Source of the DNA: a virus
Length of the DNA: 64,000 bases
IMG/VR virus record: IMGVR_UViG_3300025598_000030
Location: 1 to 64,000 of that record
Strand: one strand, 5' to 3'
The notes beneath the pieces were generated by a model that was not told where the DNA came from, searched no databases, and was given only the letters and a program-made list of their open reading frames with translations. The translations under genes and the position numbers were made by a program. Each line of letters opens with the position of its first letter. Positions within the stretch are counted from its first letter, which is position 1. Shown one piece after another: positions 54,218-62,840 of this stretch.

Positions 54218-54519
54218 TAAACAAGTATATAGAATTACATGAAAAATTTATGGAATTACTCGCAGAGTATCATAATAATCACATTTATTTTATAAGGAAG
54301 CCGAATACTTATACGTTGCGATTAGTTGCAAAAACGATGAGAGAGCTAAAAAGGCTCACTCGTGAAATGAAAGTTAACAACGTAGAACTTAGTCGTACTT
54401 TATTAGAAGAAAAAAGAAAAAGTGTGATAGAAAATAAAATACAAAAGGAGATGAGGAAAAATGAGCGACTTAAACGAATCAACAGTCAATACGACGGAAC
54501 AGATGGTAACAACACTTAA
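54214..54519 (+). CDS. Small coiled-coil protein, unknown function
   Basis: 101 residues, highly basic and helical ('RLVAKTMRELKRLTREMKVNNVELSRTLLEEKRKSVIENKIQKEMRKNERL'). ATGA overlap with gp46 and a 59-base overlap with the next gene imply tight co-expression. A DNA-binding or gp46/47 accessory role is possible but not shown. Confidence 0.55.
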   Translation: MINKYIELHEKFMELLAEYHNNHIYFIRKPNTYTLRLVAKTMRELKRLTREMKVNNVELSRTLLEEKRKSVIENKIQKEMRKNERLKRINSQYDGTDGNNT

Positions 54520-54676
54520 GACATATGTAGATGAAAATAGTAAGTTTATAAATGGAAATTCAGCGGCAGGAACCCGTGCACGTAAGGCGTTAGCCGAACT
54601 TGGCAAACTAGTAAAAGCTCGACGTAATGAAATTACTGCCGAAAAGAATGCACGTAAAATTAATAAAGTAAATTAA
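54461..54676 (+). CDS. Small basic histone H1/Hc1-like protein
   Basis: 71 residues. 'SAAGTRARKALAELGKLVKARRNEITAEKNARK' (about 34-66) resembles the Hc1-type motif A-A-G-x-R-A-R-K-x-L-x-E-L-x-K-L of bacterial histone-like proteins, also found in marine T4-like phages. Probable nucleoid-like DNA binding. GGAG lies upstream, and the start is inside the preceding gene in another frame. Confidence 0.6.
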   Translation: MSDLNESTVNTTEQMVTTLKTYVDENSKFINGNSAAGTRARKALAELGKLVKARRNEITAEKNARKINKVN

Positions 54677-54679
54677 TTA

Positions 54680-55633
54680 ATGAAAGTACTATTTCACACC
54701 CATACTCCTTGTTATTTAGGAACGACCGTTTCTGTAATGAACTATGCAAGATATAATCAAGAAGTATTAGGTAATGAGAGCATTATTTGCTATAATCATG
54801 ATTTTAAGGGAGAAATGATCAATGGTAACCTTGATAAAGATGTGCTAAAAAAATGGACTGATATATGTGAAGTTAGAAGCACCACTGATGGAAACTATAA
54901 TGATGTCTGTAAAGATGTCGATGTTGCATATTTTCAAAGAAGTGGCGAGCCAGAACCATTACCGAATACTGCTAGAACTGCTATTCATGCTGTTTTTCAA
55001 CTTAACACCCCACATGGTGATCGATATGCATATATTTCGGAATGGTTATCTAAAAAAGTAACCGGCGGTGTTGCACCTTGGGTTCCATATATAGTGCAGA
55101 TGCCGAAGCCTAATCAAGATATGAGAGAATTTTTCGGTATTCCTAAAGATAAAATCATTATCGGTAGATTAGGAAGTTGGAATATTTTTGTCGACGGAAT
55201 GGAATGGGCATGTCAAGCTATTGTTAATATTGTAAACAAACGGAATGATATTGTTTTCCTATTAGTCAATACTAAAAAGTTTTACGAACATCCTAATATC
55301 ATTTATGTAAATGGGATTGCAGATGAACAAATAAAATCTAATTTTATAAACACATGTGATGCAATGATACACTCTAGATGGCAAGGAGAAAGTTTCGGAA
55401 TGGCTATCTGCGAATTTCTATTTCATAATAAGCCAGTACTATCATGGAACGGAGGAGTCGATCAGCATCATATCGATCTTCTAAAAGATACCGGATTATT
55501 GTATAATAGCACCGCTGATTTAGAGAATAAATTAGATAATATTAAATCGTTTAATGGCGATTATCATAAAATTGTCGAAAAATTTAATCCTAATAATGTA
55601 ATGCAGCAGTTTAAATCAGTATTTTTAGATTGA
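54680..55633 (+). CDS. Glycosyltransferase, GT4-like
   Basis: 317 residues. The N-terminal Rossmann half begins 'MKVLFHTHTPCYLGTTVSVMNYAR'. The C-terminal donor half has 'IIIGRLGSWNIFVDGMEWACQA' and 'AMIHSRWQGESFGMAICEFLFHNKPVLSWNGG', i.e. the E-S-F-G-x-x-x-x-E of GT4 enzymes. Substrate unknown. It resembles the 7753-8847 gene in fold class only. It ends TGATG, overlapping the GIY-YIG gene start. Confidence 0.8.
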   Translation: MKVLFHTHTPCYLGTTVSVMNYARYNQEVLGNESIICYNHDFKGEMINGNLDKDVLKKWTDICEVRSTTDGNYNDVCKDVDVAYFQRSGEPEPLPNTARTAIHAVFQLNTPHGDRYAYISEWLSKKVTGGVAPWVPYIVQMPKPNQDMREFFGIPKDKIIIGRLGSWNIFVDGMEWACQAIVNIVNKRNDIVFLLVNTKKFYEHPNIIYVNGIADEQIKSNFINTCDAMIHSRWQGESFGMAICEFLFHNKPVLSWNGGVDQHHIDLLKDTGLLYNSTADLENKLDNIKSFNGDYHKIVEKFNPNNVMQQFKSVFLD

Positions 55634-56058
55634 TGACTTGGTTCTATCAAGGACAAATAGTTACTGAACTTCCTGAGACCTGTGTTGGTTTTATATATCT
55701 TATTACTAACACTATCTCAGGACGTATGTATATTGGCAAAAAACTGGCAAAATTTTCAAAAACAAAATATAAAACAGTTAAACTTAAAAACGGCAAAAAG
55801 AAACGTAAAAAAATCAAAGGCACAATAGAATCAGATTGGCAAACATATTACGGTTCCAGTGATGAACTTAATCGAGATATAGAAAAATTAGGCAAAGAAA
55901 ACTTTCAAAGAGAAATATTACATTATTGTAATAGCAAGGCACAAACTTCATACTTAGAAGCAAAAGAACAATTTGACCGGCGCGTGTTAGAATCCACTGA
56001 ATATTACAATGGTCATATACGTGTTAGAGTCCACGGCTCACATATACTCAAAAAATAA
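55633..56058 (+). CDS. GIY-YIG nuclease-domain protein
   Basis: 141 residues from the ATG overlapping the previous stop. GIY-YIG signature 'GFIYLITNTISGRMYIGKKL' (about 20-39), a basic K-rich insert, 'SDWQTYYGSS', 'FQREILHYCNSK' and 'YLEAKEQFDRRVL' (candidate metal-binding Glu). I recall close relatives at a fixed place in cyanomyoviruses, so it may be a resident nuclease rather than a recent mobile gene. A long structured non-coding stretch follows. Confidence 0.8.
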   Translation: MTWFYQGQIVTELPETCVGFIYLITNTISGRMYIGKKLAKFSKTKYKTVKLKNGKKKRKKIKGTIESDWQTYYGSSDELNRDIEKLGKENFQREILHYCNSKAQTSYLEAKEQFDRRVLESTEYYNGHIRVRVHGSHILKK

Positions 56059-56069
56059 GGCAAAATAAG

Positions 56070-56490
56070 CAGTAAGGCTAGCATCGGCTGATATCGGATG
56101 CCCATGATAACCACACGAAAGTGATGGGGACGGAAGACTCTGCGCTGCACAGAGGACTCAACTACTATCCTTAACAGGACGAGGATCGCGAATTGCTGCG
56201 GTTTAGTTGCTTAAGAAAAGAATTCAGGCACAAAGAAGGGAGAAAAACCCTACGTTGTTACATAAGACTAGCGTTTGTGTAATAGCCGCCGTCATATAAA
56301 GACGCTGCTCGAGGTACCGGATGACCGCCTCTGTAATGCAGTAACGCTAGTGGCTGTGATACTCAGATAATCTACAGTTTTTTGCCCGGCAACGGGCAAA
56401 GCATGGCTGCTTTATCTAGATAATCATTAAAAAAAAGAAAATGCTTCGAGCTGATAAGCGAAGAAGCAGGTGAGCTCTTGCTCACCTTTC
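56070..56490 (+). ncRNA. Candidate structured non-coding RNA
   Basis: The only gene-free stretch over 300 bases (56059-56520). It is visibly richer in G+C than the surroundings and full of nested complements. A 9-bp helix, ACTAGCGTT (56267-56275) with AACGCTAGT (56343-56351), closes a domain. Inside are CGTC/GACG (56290-93, 56301-04) and a stacked CTGC/GCAG, GAGG/CCTC, CGG/CCG arm (56305-56341). Other hairpins: CTCTG/CAGAG (56138-56154), CCCAT/ATGGG with an inner CAC-GAAA-GTG (from 56101), TTTGCCCG-GCAA-CGGGCAAA (56381-56400). It ends with a terminator-like hairpin (56469-56490). It matches no tRNA, tmRNA, RNase P or SRP RNA that I recognise. Confidence 0.6.
56469..56490 (+). terminator. Terminator-like hairpin at the end of the RNA region
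   Basis: GGTGAGC, loop TCTT, GCTCACC, then TTTC: a 7-bp perfect stem with a short T run, placed between the structured region and the next late motif. The T run is short, so it may be inefficient. Confidence 0.5.
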
Positions 56491-56491
56491 G

Positions 56492-56499
56492 CATAAATA
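56492..56499 (+). promoter_or_regulatory. Late-promoter-like motif
   Basis: CATAAATA, 21 bases before the ATG of the repeat-rich protein gene at 56521. Confidence 0.4.
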
Positions 56500-56520
56500 A
56501 ATTATAGTGTGGAAAAATAA

Positions 56521-57669
56521 ATGAGATTAACTGATGTATTATCGAAAAATGAGTTAAGAACTTTAAGAGAAGCAGATAATGCGCTAGTACCTGCAGGTGG
56601 AAGAAAAATAACAGGTGGAGCAATAGTACCTGCAAATAAAGCAAATGATCCTCGTTCCGGAGAATTCCTTGGAGGAAGTTCTACAAATCCATCAGGCAAT
56701 CAAAGTAATATGCAGTATCAAGTGCCTAATACTCAGAATCCTAACGGAATTAATCCGGCTAACTGGTTTAAACCTCAAAATCCTAATGCTGTAAAGATTA
56801 ATCAAACTCCACCACCTGGTCAAACAACTCAAGCAGGTCCTACTGGGGCAACTCCACCACCTGGTCAAACAACTCAAGCAGGTCCTACTGGGGCAACAAC
56901 AACTCCGAATACGCCAACAGGAATTACAGGGCCTGCGGGAACAACCCCACCGCCGCCTGGTCAAACAACTCAGCCTGCTACAACTACAGCAGCAAATTCT
57001 GCAGCAGGACTTAATATGCCAAAAAGTGGGATTATGTCTAAAGCTGTTGGCAAAATTGCTACCGGTCTTGGAAAAGCAGTCGGAGGAGTTCAAGGTGCTG
57101 CTCAAGGTGCTAAATTAGCATTTAATCGAGGACAAAGTGCTGCGAGTGCTGCTGCAACTAGAAATGTTGCTCAAGCAGGTGGAATGAGTCCTGGTCAAAT
57201 ACGTTCAGCGCTTAATACACCGAAAGGATCAGCAACTCCTGGAGGTACTGCACCTAGTGCTAGTGGTACTAGAGGCGCAGCTGGTACAGCAGGAATAGGT
57301 AGTGGCGGAAGAGGATCTGGTGCTGCAGGTGCTGCAAGCGCCGGAGGTGCTTCAACTAATACTAGAACTGCCGGTACATCTGGTCCAGCAGGACGTAGCC
57401 CATTTCCGAATTTAGTAGGACAAGATTTTGATAGCACACACAATGTACCAGTCACTGCTGCAGGCGCTGCAAAATGGAATGCAGAAAAAACTAAAACTCA
57501 ACAAAACCTTGATTGGTTTACTCAAAAAGAAACTGCTGCTACTAGAGCAGGATATTTGCCGAATAAAAACACAGGAGTATGGACAGCACCGGCAGCTTCT
57601 GGAACACAACCTACTGCCGAATCGGTAGAAGACATAATTAGATTAGCTAAACAACTAGCGGCTCGTTAA
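56521..57669 (+). CDS. Pro/Gly/Ala-rich repeat protein, possibly virion-associated
   Basis: 382 residues, mostly low complexity. Residues about 96-125 are two perfect copies of TPPPGQTTQAGPTGA, encoded by an exact 45-bp DNA repeat, followed by a degenerate third unit (collagen-like G-x-x). The middle is Ala/Gly-rich ('GKIATGLGKAVGGVQGAAQGAKLAF'), possibly membrane-active. The C-terminus 'FDSTHNVPVTAAGAAKWNAEKTK...DIIRLAKQL' looks folded. N-terminal 'MRLTDVLSKNELRTLREA' is a helix. It has a late motif, suggesting a virion or internal protein. Function unknown. It ends convergently with the minus-strand gene, sharing TTAA. Confidence 0.65.
   Translation: MRLTDVLSKNELRTLREADNALVPAGGRKITGGAIVPANKANDPRSGEFLGGSSTNPSGNQSNMQYQVPNTQNPNGINPANWFKPQNPNAVKINQTPPPGQTTQAGPTGATPPPGQTTQAGPTGATTTPNTPTGITGPAGTTPPPPGQTTQPATTTAANSAAGLNMPKSGIMSKAVGKIATGLGKAVGGVQGAAQGAKLAFNRGQSAASAAATRNVAQAGGMSPGQIRSALNTPKGSATPGGTAPSASGTRGAAGTAGIGSGGRGSGAAGAASAGGASTNTRTAGTSGPAGRSPFPNLVGQDFDSTHNVPVTAAGAAKWNAEKTKTQQNLDWFTQKETAATRAGYLPNKNTGVWTAPAASGTQPTAESVEDIIRLAKQLAAR
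56806..56895 (+). repeat. Two exact tandem copies of a 45-bp repeat
   Basis: Units 56806-56850 and 56851-56895 are identical and encode a 15-residue Pro/Gly/Thr unit. Identity at the DNA level points to a recent duplication, so copy number probably varies. Confidence 0.9.
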
Positions 57670-57889: not shown

Positions 57890-58750
57890 TTATCCGAAAA
57901 AAGTTGAAGGATCGAATGTTAATGGAACTTCAACTTCCTCTGCAGAGCCAGCAGCAACCATTTCATCAGTGGCTTTAACACGTAATGGCTTAATCGCAAT
58001 ATCATCTTTAAGCTTATCTAGATGATTTTTCACAGCATTGAAGATATTTTTATCGCAATTTTGCATAAATTCTGAAATAAATTCACGTTCTGTTACAGAA
58101 CCTGCAGTAGTATCAATACGATATATAGTATTTGATACTAGATCTAAAGTCATTTTTGTTAATTTATTGAAACTGTCCGCAAATAATTCTAATTTTTTAT
58201 CTTCATCTATAGCTTTATCGTTAACTAAATTAATTATTCGTTGAGTTTCAAAGGATTCTGCACTAGCTTTTGATAGTTCTCTATAATTTAAAGGTCTTAC
58301 ATATATAACGAGATTAGAAGCTATTTCGATTCTTTCGTCCCATGCAGGCGCAGACACTAATTGTGCAAGAATATCTTTAAGATCTATACCGTATGTAGCA
58401 TCTACGCCTTTAACTGTAACAGTTGTATCCATAAATTCGCCATAAGTTGCTAGCCTGATTGCAATTAATATAGCATCAATGTCTGTCTGAGGACATTGCC
58501 ACCCATCGAGTATGTTAGGAACACAGCTTTGAATCACATCAGCAACTGCTTGCCCATTAAGTAATGCATCTGGAGTTTTTAAAATCAACTCATCTCTAGC
58601 AGTCATAGAATATACAGGATATTCGTTTGTAGGGGTACGTTGCAAAGACCCGTCGGGCCAATACTTTCCTTGACTAGGTAAAGTAATATAAATCTTAGGT
58701 TGTCTCATTAATCCTAATAATGGATTAGTTTTTTGTGGAGGAATCTGCAT
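57890..58750 (-). CDS. 26: Baseplate hub protein, gp26-like
   Basis: 286 residues. 'KIYITLPSQGKYWPDGSL', 'YPVYSMTARDELILKTPDALLNGQAVADVIQSCVPNI' and 'DIDAILIAIRLATYGEFMD' match the T4 baseplate-hub family (gp26 and relatives), which builds the central hub. The C-terminal half is helical. A perfect minus-strand TATAAATA lies about 38 bases before the ATG. With its small partner, it forms a minus-strand island inside plus-strand head/tail genes. Confidence 0.68.
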   Translation of the reverse strand: MQIPPQKTNPLLGLMRQPKIYITLPSQGKYWPDGSLQRTPTNEYPVYSMTARDELILKTPDALLNGQAVADVIQSCVPNILDGWQCPQTDIDAILIAIRLATYGEFMDTTVTVKGVDATYGIDLKDILAQLVSAPAWDERIEIASNLVIYVRPLNYRELSKASAESFETQRIINLVNDKAIDEDKKLELFADSFNKLTKMTLDLVSNTIYRIDTTAGSVTEREFISEFMQNCDKNIFNAVKNHLDKLKDDIAIKPLRVKATDEMVAAGSAEEVEVPLTFDPSTFFG

Positions 58751-61103: not shown

Positions 61104-62840
61104 ATGACATGGAAACGCTTTTTTTCACCTGTATCTTCCGGGGCAATGAGCCCGTTAAGTCAAAGCGGCCGTGCAAATCCTACACGTACTAACTATTCAT
61201 CATATCTTCCGGATGTTTATAGCGGGCATCCTAACCGTTTAGAGCGTTATAGCCAGTATGATACTATGGATATGGATCCGGAAGTTAATGCTGCATTTGA
61301 CATTTTAGCTGAATTCTGCACTCAAATGAACGATGAAAATGGTACACCATTCCAAACATTCTTCAAAGAACAAGCTACTTCTACTGAAATTAAGATTATT
61401 AAGAAATACATGCAGCAATGGACTAAGTTAAACAAGTTCGGAACACGTATTTTTAAGATTATTCGCAATACTTTTAAGTATGGTGATTGCTTTTTCATTA
61501 GAGATCCTGAAACTTTAGCTTGGTTTTATATAGATCCTAGTAAGATTGATAAGATTATTGTTAACGAAAGTGAAGGTAAAGAACCCGAACAATATGTTAT
61601 TCGTGATATGAATATCAATTTTCAAAATTTAACAGTAACACAGATCAACCCAACTAATCAAAATAGTACTCCGGGCGGTACTGCTTATGTAACAGGCGGC
61701 GCACAACAACGAGGTATGGTCGGGGCATATCCTCAAGCTACCGGAAGTCGATTCACTCAAAACCAAAATCAATGGGCTATTGATGCTAAACATCTAATAC
61801 ATCTTAGCTTAAGTGAAGGATTAGATAATAATTTTCCATTTGGCAATAGTTTAATGGAAACAATTTTTAAAGTTTATAAGCAAAAAGAGTTATTAGAAGA
61901 CGCAATTATTATCTATCGCGTACAGCGTGCACCAGAACGTCGTGTATTTTATATCGACGTAGGTAATATGCCTAGTCATTTGGCTATGAGCTTTGTTGAA
62001 CGTGTTAAAAATGAAGTAAATCAACGTAGAATTCCTAGTGTATCAGGAGGCGGGCAGAGCATTATCGATGCTAGCTATAACCCTTTAAGCATTAACGAAG
62101 ACTATTTCTTCCCACAAACTGCTGAAGGACGTGGCAGCAAAGTAGAAACATTACCGGGCGGTACTAATTTAGGTGAAATTAGTGACTTGTTATTCTTTAC
62201 ACAGAAGTTAATGCGTGCATTACGCATACCTAGCAGTTACTTACCAACCGGCGCAGCCGATGATCAAACCCCGTTTAACGATGGGAGAGTCGGTACTGCA
62301 TATATTCAAGAGTTGCGTTTTAACAACTATTGCGAACGTTTACAGAGTTTGATTAACGAACAGTTTGATACTGAATTTAAATTCTATCTATATAGCAAAG
62401 GTATTAATATCGATCCTAACTTATTCGATGTTAAGTTTAATCCTCCGCAAAACTTTGCTGCACATCGTCAAGCAGAAATGGATCAAGCTAGAGTTAGTAC
62501 ATTTGGTAGTGTATCGGAGATTCCATATTTGAGTAAACGTTTTGCATTGAAACGTTTCTTAGGATTAACTGCAGAAGAAATTGCAGAAAACGAGCAGATG
62601 TGGAGAGAAGAAAACGTAGATACAGAAACTCCATTAAATGCACAAGGAGAAATGCGTTCAGCAGGTATTACTACTTCAGGATTAGGTAGCGATATGGCAA
62701 GTTTAGGACAAAGTGATGCAGGCACTGAAGAATTACAAAATATAGGTAGCGAAGCAGCTGGAGGGTCACCATTAGGAGGACAACCGGCTTCAGGCGGTGC
62801 TCCTCCTCCGCCATCCGGTGGTGCTGCTCCTCCGGCATAA
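61104..62840 (+). CDS. 20: Portal vertex protein gp20
   Basis: 578 residues (T4 gp20 is 524). Portal signatures: 'NRLERYSQYDTMDMDPEVNAAFDILAEFC', 'RIFKIIRNTFKYGDCFF', 'FPFGNSLMETIFKVYKQKELLEDAIIIYRVQRAPERRVFYIDVGNMP' and 'SDLLFFTQKLMRALRIPSSYLP'. It forms the dodecameric gate for DNA packaging and tail joining. The last 90 residues are a Gly/Pro/Ser-rich extension absent from T4. It starts 2 bases after the tape-measure stop. Confidence 0.96.
   Translation: MTWKRFFSPVSSGAMSPLSQSGRANPTRTNYSSYLPDVYSGHPNRLERYSQYDTMDMDPEVNAAFDILAEFCTQMNDENGTPFQTFFKEQATSTEIKIIKKYMQQWTKLNKFGTRIFKIIRNTFKYGDCFFIRDPETLAWFYIDPSKIDKIIVNESEGKEPEQYVIRDMNINFQNLTVTQINPTNQNSTPGGTAYVTGGAQQRGMVGAYPQATGSRFTQNQNQWAIDAKHLIHLSLSEGLDNNFPFGNSLMETIFKVYKQKELLEDAIIIYRVQRAPERRVFYIDVGNMPSHLAMSFVERVKNEVNQRRIPSVSGGGQSIIDASYNPLSINEDYFFPQTAEGRGSKVETLPGGTNLGEISDLLFFTQKLMRALRIPSSYLPTGAADDQTPFNDGRVGTAYIQELRFNNYCERLQSLINEQFDTEFKFYLYSKGINIDPNLFDVKFNPPQNFAAHRQAEMDQARVSTFGSVSEIPYLSKRFALKRFLGLTAEEIAENEQMWREENVDTETPLNAQGEMRSAGITTSGLGSDMASLGQSDAGTEELQNIGSEAAGGSPLGGQPASGGAPPPPSGGAAPPA

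Follow-up and report, generated by a model that had tools for sequence, protein, structure and literature searches.

What occupies positions 56059-56520 of this phage DNA, and what might it do? The locus had been singled out from its letters alone, in an earlier note, as a gene-free region resembling a new, large structured RNA. It lies in the window analysed here, a stretch of 64,000 nucleotides from an 84-kb phage contig that bears T4-type genes, among them T4_baseplate at 57890-58750 and a portal protein at 61104-62840 with ~50% identity to the portals of PA5oct-like and Sinorhizobium phages.

A gene-free locus with a conserved RNA fold

The absence of genes is borne out: the interval is bounded by open reading frames at 55630-56058 and 56521-57669 and holds no credible gene. 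At the RNA locus of 126 homologues the reading frames are nearly always broken, which marks the locus as non-coding; the decayed coding gene that had been envisaged as the other possibility is not what these homologues contain. The G+C content of the interval, 0.45, had been described as higher than that of the flanks, which is true of the left flank (~0.31) but not of the right one (0.41-0.50).

Covariation among homologues had been proposed as a check of the RNA itself. In an alignment of 92 sequences, 86.6% of the cells are paired in the named structure, as against 73.1% in shuffles and 36-44% when the partners are slid, and 66 of the 83 pairs have changed on both sides. The covariation score of the structure is 0.417, compared with 0.182 for shuffles and at most 0.097 for slid versions, and when all pairs of columns are scanned without supervision, complementary pairs come out on top. 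Compensatory changes back most of the 18 helical segments, four pseudoknots among them. Folding of the RNA strand as a single sequence, a procedure that cannot show pseudoknots, gives -130.8 kcal/mol versus -113.4 kcal/mol for dinucleotide shuffles (z -2.93), none of the 100 shuffles being as good. The idea of a large structured phage RNA is strongly supported by these results, and that the RNA is genuine can be regarded as practically certain. The conserved co-linear molecule, a body followed by two repeat modules, was located with an nhmmer profile and by covariation at 56069-56424 on the + strand, which is the strand of all parts of the RNA and of its two flanking genes, and its size is about 370-430 nt.

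Helices and pseudoknots

The first pseudoknot, PK1, joins 56069-56072 to a hairpin loop at 56145-56148; all four pairs have changed on both sides, 86% of the cells are paired, and its pairs rank 27, 36 and 79 in the unsupervised scan. PK2 (56076-56089) pairs 56076-79 with 56086-89, in the loop of the helix 56081-85/56097-101, with 86.7% of the cells paired and a GC-AU exchange at 56077/56088. Further downstream, at 56159-56209, the helix 56159-63/56205-09 surrounds the pairings 56165,168-170/177-179,181 and 56184-89/56198-203, as indicated by an Rfam match and by covariation.

The 3' domain has a hairpin at 56255-56285 whose loop, 56268-56274, forms PK3 with 56344-56350 (double changes in 11/11 and 7/7 pairs, respectively). 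A 9-bp helix over the same positions had been thought to close a branched domain at long range. The complement exists (56267-56275 with 56343-56351), and its inner part, 56270-56274/56344-56348, is paired in 97-100% of homologues and shows numerous double changes, but covariation makes it the loop pseudoknot of the hairpin instead of a helix that closes a domain, and conservation does not extend to its outermost pairs. PK4 (56291-56325) links 56291-95 to 56321-25, in the loop of the helix 56311-14/56328-31; 99.3% of the cells are paired, with CG-UA and AU-GC exchanges. The top covariation (56305-56341, score 160) belongs to the helix 56305-08/56338-41, paired in 97% of the cells. A second pairing suggested previously, between CTGCA at 56145-49 and TGCAG at 56337-41, is not conserved, three of its five pairs forming in only 28-53% of homologues. 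Both sides have other partners: CTGC 56145-48 covaries with GCAG 56069-72, and GCAG 56338-41 with CTGC 56305-08.

Covariation also backs the hairpin TTTGCCC..GGGCAAA at 56381-56400, between the repeat modules, whose figure of 81% is lowered by register shifts in the sequence alignment; the hairpins 56381-87/56394-400 and 56111-116/56121-127 are both under-counted in this way. The predicted GNRA loops are present (GAAA at 56117-56120, GCAA at 56389-56392), and loop nucleotides such as GGTACCGG and ACTATCC are invariant.

The probable 3' end of the transcript is a terminator-like hairpin at 56470-56489, found in the MFE and centroid folds. The end had been called terminator-like, and this description stands in part: the hairpin 56470-56477/56482-56489 is strong and a counterpart follows the RNA in 80 of 119 homologues (15 in shuffles), but the U tract is short and a strict terminator scan of the window region returned none. 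No promoter was recognised upstream of the RNA in the window and its homologues.

The RNA extends the Polynucleobacter-1 motif

The sole Rfam match in the whole window is Polynucleobacter-1 (RF01718), which covers 56076-56212 with 93.3 bits against a gathering threshold of 37 and with the model complete (1-141). By covariance model score, membership in this family applies to that 5' domain only. The earlier statement that no known large RNA could be matched is therefore wrong for these positions, and the claim of novelty has to be divided: the first 137 bases are a known motif, whereas the additional 5' pseudoknot strand of PK1, the whole 3' domain with its two further pseudoknots and the paired repeats lie beyond the model and are absent from Rfam. 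In 13 further homologues searched at relaxed thresholds, RF01718 alone matches, always over model positions 1-141 and with 62-121 bits; the 3' two thirds of the RNA are therefore undescribed in Rfam. What had been described is just the 5' third of a single co-linear RNA, ~56069-56424, and the full RNA is ~2.5-3 times longer than Polynucleobacter-1 as filed. In the literature searched, this motif is represented by a single table row of Weinberg et al. 2010, 'RNA y, cis-reg y, switch ?; Burkholderiales, fresh water/estuary', that is, as probably cis-regulatory (PMC2864571).

Occurrence in uncultured phages

Retrieval patterns were drawn from the 5' domain and, separately, from the 3' domain and searched in viral contigs; both lead to one and the same co-linear RNA. 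A 370-position profile (nhmmer) matches at least 206 of the 252 loci retrieved, 172 of them over the full length, and the partial matches mostly stop at contig ends. At <95% identity, these viral loci represent at least 126 lineages. Among the matches listed, the only confirmed RNA locus outside viral contigs is L123, on a short MAG contig. Only one of three pattern matches in GTDB, on a 4.5-kb MAG contig, is real; those in Variovorax and Pseudoflavonifractor are due to chance. The RNA had no blastn match among isolated phages and was not found in a search of plasmid sequences, and a covariance model of the 3' domain gave nothing convincing in the isolated phages Melnitz-1, V45v66, PA5oct, Phosso and ACP17. 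The RNA is carried by many uncultured freshwater-type phages.

Four copies of the RNA body are present in the 327-kb jumbo phage contig IMGVR_UViG_3300044644_001125 (G006; loci L152, L156, L297, L298 and L314-L318). The same contig contains the 12-mer CTAAAAGATAAT 139 times on both strands (reversed-pattern control: 0), often as inverted pairs around promoter-like sites, in the manner of operators or stoperators, and clusters of it follow all four RNA copies. A group of five divergent loci (L152, L156, L126, L166 and L193) keeps the body and lacks the repeats, which are thus not essential to every member. Other relatives are more distant. L058 and L108 keep the identity of the repeat cores described below; L047, on a 249.8-kb contig, keeps an ACTATCC..GGACGA core and matches neither RF01718 nor the 3'-domain model. 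Two isolated jumbo phages, Phosso (L310, 6180-7080) and PA5oct (L309, 7605-8268), also have gene-free gaps of ~0.7-1 kb at the syntenic position or close to it; these gaps match neither RF01718 nor the 3'-domain model and may hold different structured RNAs.

Neighbouring genes

The gene directly upstream, 55630-56058, lies outside the RNA and encodes a SegE-type GIY-YIG nuclease (Pfam PF19835, 1.5e-33). The same family is found upstream in 166 loci, where gp47- and gp46-like genes are followed by the nuclease gene and almost immediately by the RNA, with a median of 9 nt separating the nuclease stop from the start of the RNA. Other loci fill this slot, which separates gp46 from the RNA, differently: a non-homologous protein, assigned by eye as PD-(D/E)XK-like, occupies it in L018, L180, L247, L250 and L060, and neither nuclease adjoins the RNA in L107, L130, L150 and L195. 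As it is replaced or absent in some loci, the nuclease is probably a neighbour by gene order, and the adjacency is better explained by a conserved order after gp47-gp46. For the same reason, the hypothesis of an RNA-guided nuclease involving the GIY-YIG protein is weakened. The occurrence of the RNA beside other genes (a non-homologous nuclease in L018, L180 and L247, no nuclease in L107, L130, L150 and L195, four copies in the 327-kb contig) was counted in favor of a stand-alone RNA.

Two other explanations start from this neighbour. The RNA could belong to the 3' UTR of the nuclease mRNA and serve to stabilise or regulate that message, for example by acting as an exonuclease barrier, as its short distance from the stop codon in 166 loci and the lack of a recognised promoter of its own would suggest. 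This is quite unlikely, however, since the RNA also occurs after a non-homologous nuclease and without any, and the repeats and their concerted change would be left unexplained. The adjacent GIY-YIG gene and the invariant loop nucleotides GGTACCGG and ACTATCC could also recall a ribozyme or an intron-derived element, group I-like or linked to a homing endonuclease. Rfam gave no match to intron or HEARO models at E up to 1, the flanking genes are intact with no split gene, and an unrelated nuclease can take the place of this one, so that such an origin is highly improbable.

Some observations concern the upstream genes themselves. The exchange in the slot is possibly a non-homologous replacement of a Holliday junction resolvase, and at the comparable place Phosso has a gene annotated as such; if this is true, the GIY-YIG family would gain a function. 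In PHROG 447 and several phage records, the family of 55630-56058 is labelled 'NAD synthetase', likely a propagated misannotation. The small gene 54461-54676, which matches Pfam Hc1 (histone H1-like, 9.7e-13), has the gp46-like gene on one side and, on the other, a possible glycosyltransferase at 54680-55633 that falls just below the Pfam cut-off.

On the downstream side, the gene 56521-57669, also outside the RNA, begins with a T4-like capsid-targeting leader, MRLTDVLSKNELRTLRE. Of 176 loci, 122 have the next gene on the same strand and 54 have it on the opposite one. Leaders resembling the T4 capsid-targeting sequence (MKI..II.E) are found in 106 of the 122 same-strand genes, where they span 17 of 22 unrelated gene clusters, and in none of 690 upstream genes. 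From these sequences, the downstream genes of the 106 loci, 56521-57669 included, appear to form a hotspot of putative injected head proteins. The region may be read as a turnover site for putative internal head proteins, by analogy with the internal proteins of T4.

This arrangement bears directly on the earlier description of the motif. A cis-regulatory leader or riboswitch-like element of the head-protein gene would agree with the 2010 entry 'cis-reg y' (PMC2864571), with the 122 same-strand next genes and with the capsid-targeting-like start of 106 of them. On the other hand, those genes belong to 22 unrelated clusters, a terminator-like hairpin stands between the RNA and the gene, and, unlike Polynucleobacter-1 as described, about a third of the loci are not upstream of a same-strand gene. 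Because the next gene faces the opposite way in 54 of 176 loci, the RNA is not the 5' leader of that gene; the 'cis-reg' label is unlikely on the same grounds, and cis-regulation of the head-protein gene is very improbable as an explanation of the RNA.

Twin repeats with a jointly changing core

The 3' end of the RNA contains a pair of direct repeats, ACTC-X and ATCT-X, X being a 7-nt core. The same order occurs twice: a helix, GTGAC, a spacer, ACTC or ATCT, and X. In the window, X is AGATAAT at 56365-56371, after the constant ACTC, and again at 56418-56424, after the constant ATCT. The two copies are identical in 171 of the 172 full-length RNAs, and in every lineage the three bases that precede them are not the same, CTC standing before one copy and TCT before the other. 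X was excluded from every retrieval pattern. On a tree built without X, copy 1 has changed at least 46 times and the two copies taken jointly 47 times; practically every change of X is therefore shared by both copies. At least 12 variants exist in the 126 or more lineages, with further ones in divergent members, where the identity still holds (AGCAGAA, AGCGAA, AACAAA). The RNA thus carries a repeated, identical candidate recognition motif, as expected of two-site RNAs.

A partner of X was searched for inside and outside the RNA. In the column-pair scan, no RNA column co-varies with X as its complement, and the reverse complement of X is not enriched in its own flanks (89 observed, 92 expected); no further site with which X would pair in cis was found in the RNA or its flanks. 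Two related phages with 90% identical RNAs differ in X, AGATAAT versus GCATAAT, and within 42.5 kb of aligned DNA the switch occurs at the two RNA repeats only; no other locus of that DNA co-varies with X. In summary, no cis or phage-encoded partner was found in the RNA, the flanks, the aligned 42.5 kb and the window's genome.

The same data address the proposal that X acts in DNA, as the protein target of a recombination site, packaging site or promoter pair, with RNA folding being secondary. Direct repeats of a variable but matched 7 bp do resemble paired DNA sites. However, sense copies of a phage's own X are not enriched in the flanking late-gene DNA (103 versus 100), and the raw excess of AGATAAT in the window's genome lies in coding sequence, the two RNA copies being the only intergenic ones; a role of X as phage promoter or dispersed motif was rejected on this basis. 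The extensive RNA covariation, moreover, needs a transcript, and a DNA-level site is hardly credible. The 12-mer CTAAAAGATAAT of the 327-kb contig contains AGATAAT, but its placement is operator-like and it was not taken as evidence on X.

A possible two-site mode of action

A model can be proposed from these observations, with a probability of roughly 60%: the locus would encode a trans-acting, structured phage noncoding RNA of ~370-430 nt that shows two identical tags to a common partner. The RNA would be transcribed in the direction of the upstream operon of recombination genes and nuclease and probably released at the 3' hairpin near 56489. A rigid body, with the four pseudoknots seen by covariation, would present two tandem 3' modules, each consisting of a helix, GUGAC, a spacer, the constant ACUC or AUCU, and the same X. 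As X changes often but in both copies at once, both copies, presumably exposed, most likely bind one common partner outside the RNA. During infection, the RNA may act as a two-site adaptor, a titrator or a dual-seed antisense RNA.

The partner would be either a host or phage nucleic acid recognised by base pairing or an RNA-binding protein. The former is favoured because X moved through many sequences while the rest of the module remained unchanged, a freedom that base pairing readily allows and that a protein would hardly have. The same pattern would arise from two binding sites for a protein whose specificity changes, and base pairing as the basis of the two-site mechanism is put forward at less than even odds. 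More tentative still is the picture of a re-addressable adaptor, whose pseudoknotted body would carry two equal 7-nt addresses, rewritten together with each change of target (probably a host nucleic acid). Any binder of X must co-vary with X among hosts or phages. Such concerted change of paired 7-nt repeats is rarely seen and offers a direct handle on function.

Comparison with known RNA classes

By the tests run, the full RNA belongs neither to GOLLD or ROOL nor to tmRNA or the known introns. It is like tmRNA in its ~360 nt and four pseudoknots, and ARAGORN was negative for tmRNA and tRNA in the window and in 16 homologous loci. GOLLD and ROOL are often near tRNA islands; no tRNA genes adjoin the present RNA in those same loci. 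Like GOLLD and ROOL, it is a large, elaborate, pseudoknot-rich RNA borne by phages. Unlike them, it is shorter and has its own repeat feature. Their Rfam models, searched to E 1 in the window region and to E 0.5 in 13 homologues, detect nothing, so that the parallel drawn earlier does not amount to membership.

Since GOLLD and ROOL form RNA cages (PMC12286853), an RNA-only homo-oligomer, cage or scaffold, with the repeats as linker or docking elements has to be weighed. A large phage-encoded RNA with many pseudoknots, highly conserved loops and no recurrent protein partner would be suited to it. Such an assembly is unlikely, given the smaller size, the lack of a match to those families and of nearby tRNA genes, and the fact that intermolecular pairing of identical copies should give complementary covariation, not identity of direct repeats.

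The trans-acting, two-tag reading has parallels elsewhere. In dual-seed antisense RNAs and CsrB-type sponge RNAs, one molecule carries a short single-stranded recognition motif in two or more identical copies, and the repetition of an identical short motif is shared with them. The difference is that here the motif varies from lineage to lineage, with both copies changing together, and is placed on a large pseudoknotted body. An orphan motif of 141 nt, filed as probably cis-regulatory, thus becomes a large phage RNA that stands on its own, its fold defined and its limits clear. Considered alongside GOLLD and ROOL, it suggests that several elaborate RNAs, unrelated to one another, are maintained by phages, among which this one is set apart by its twin, jointly evolving cores.
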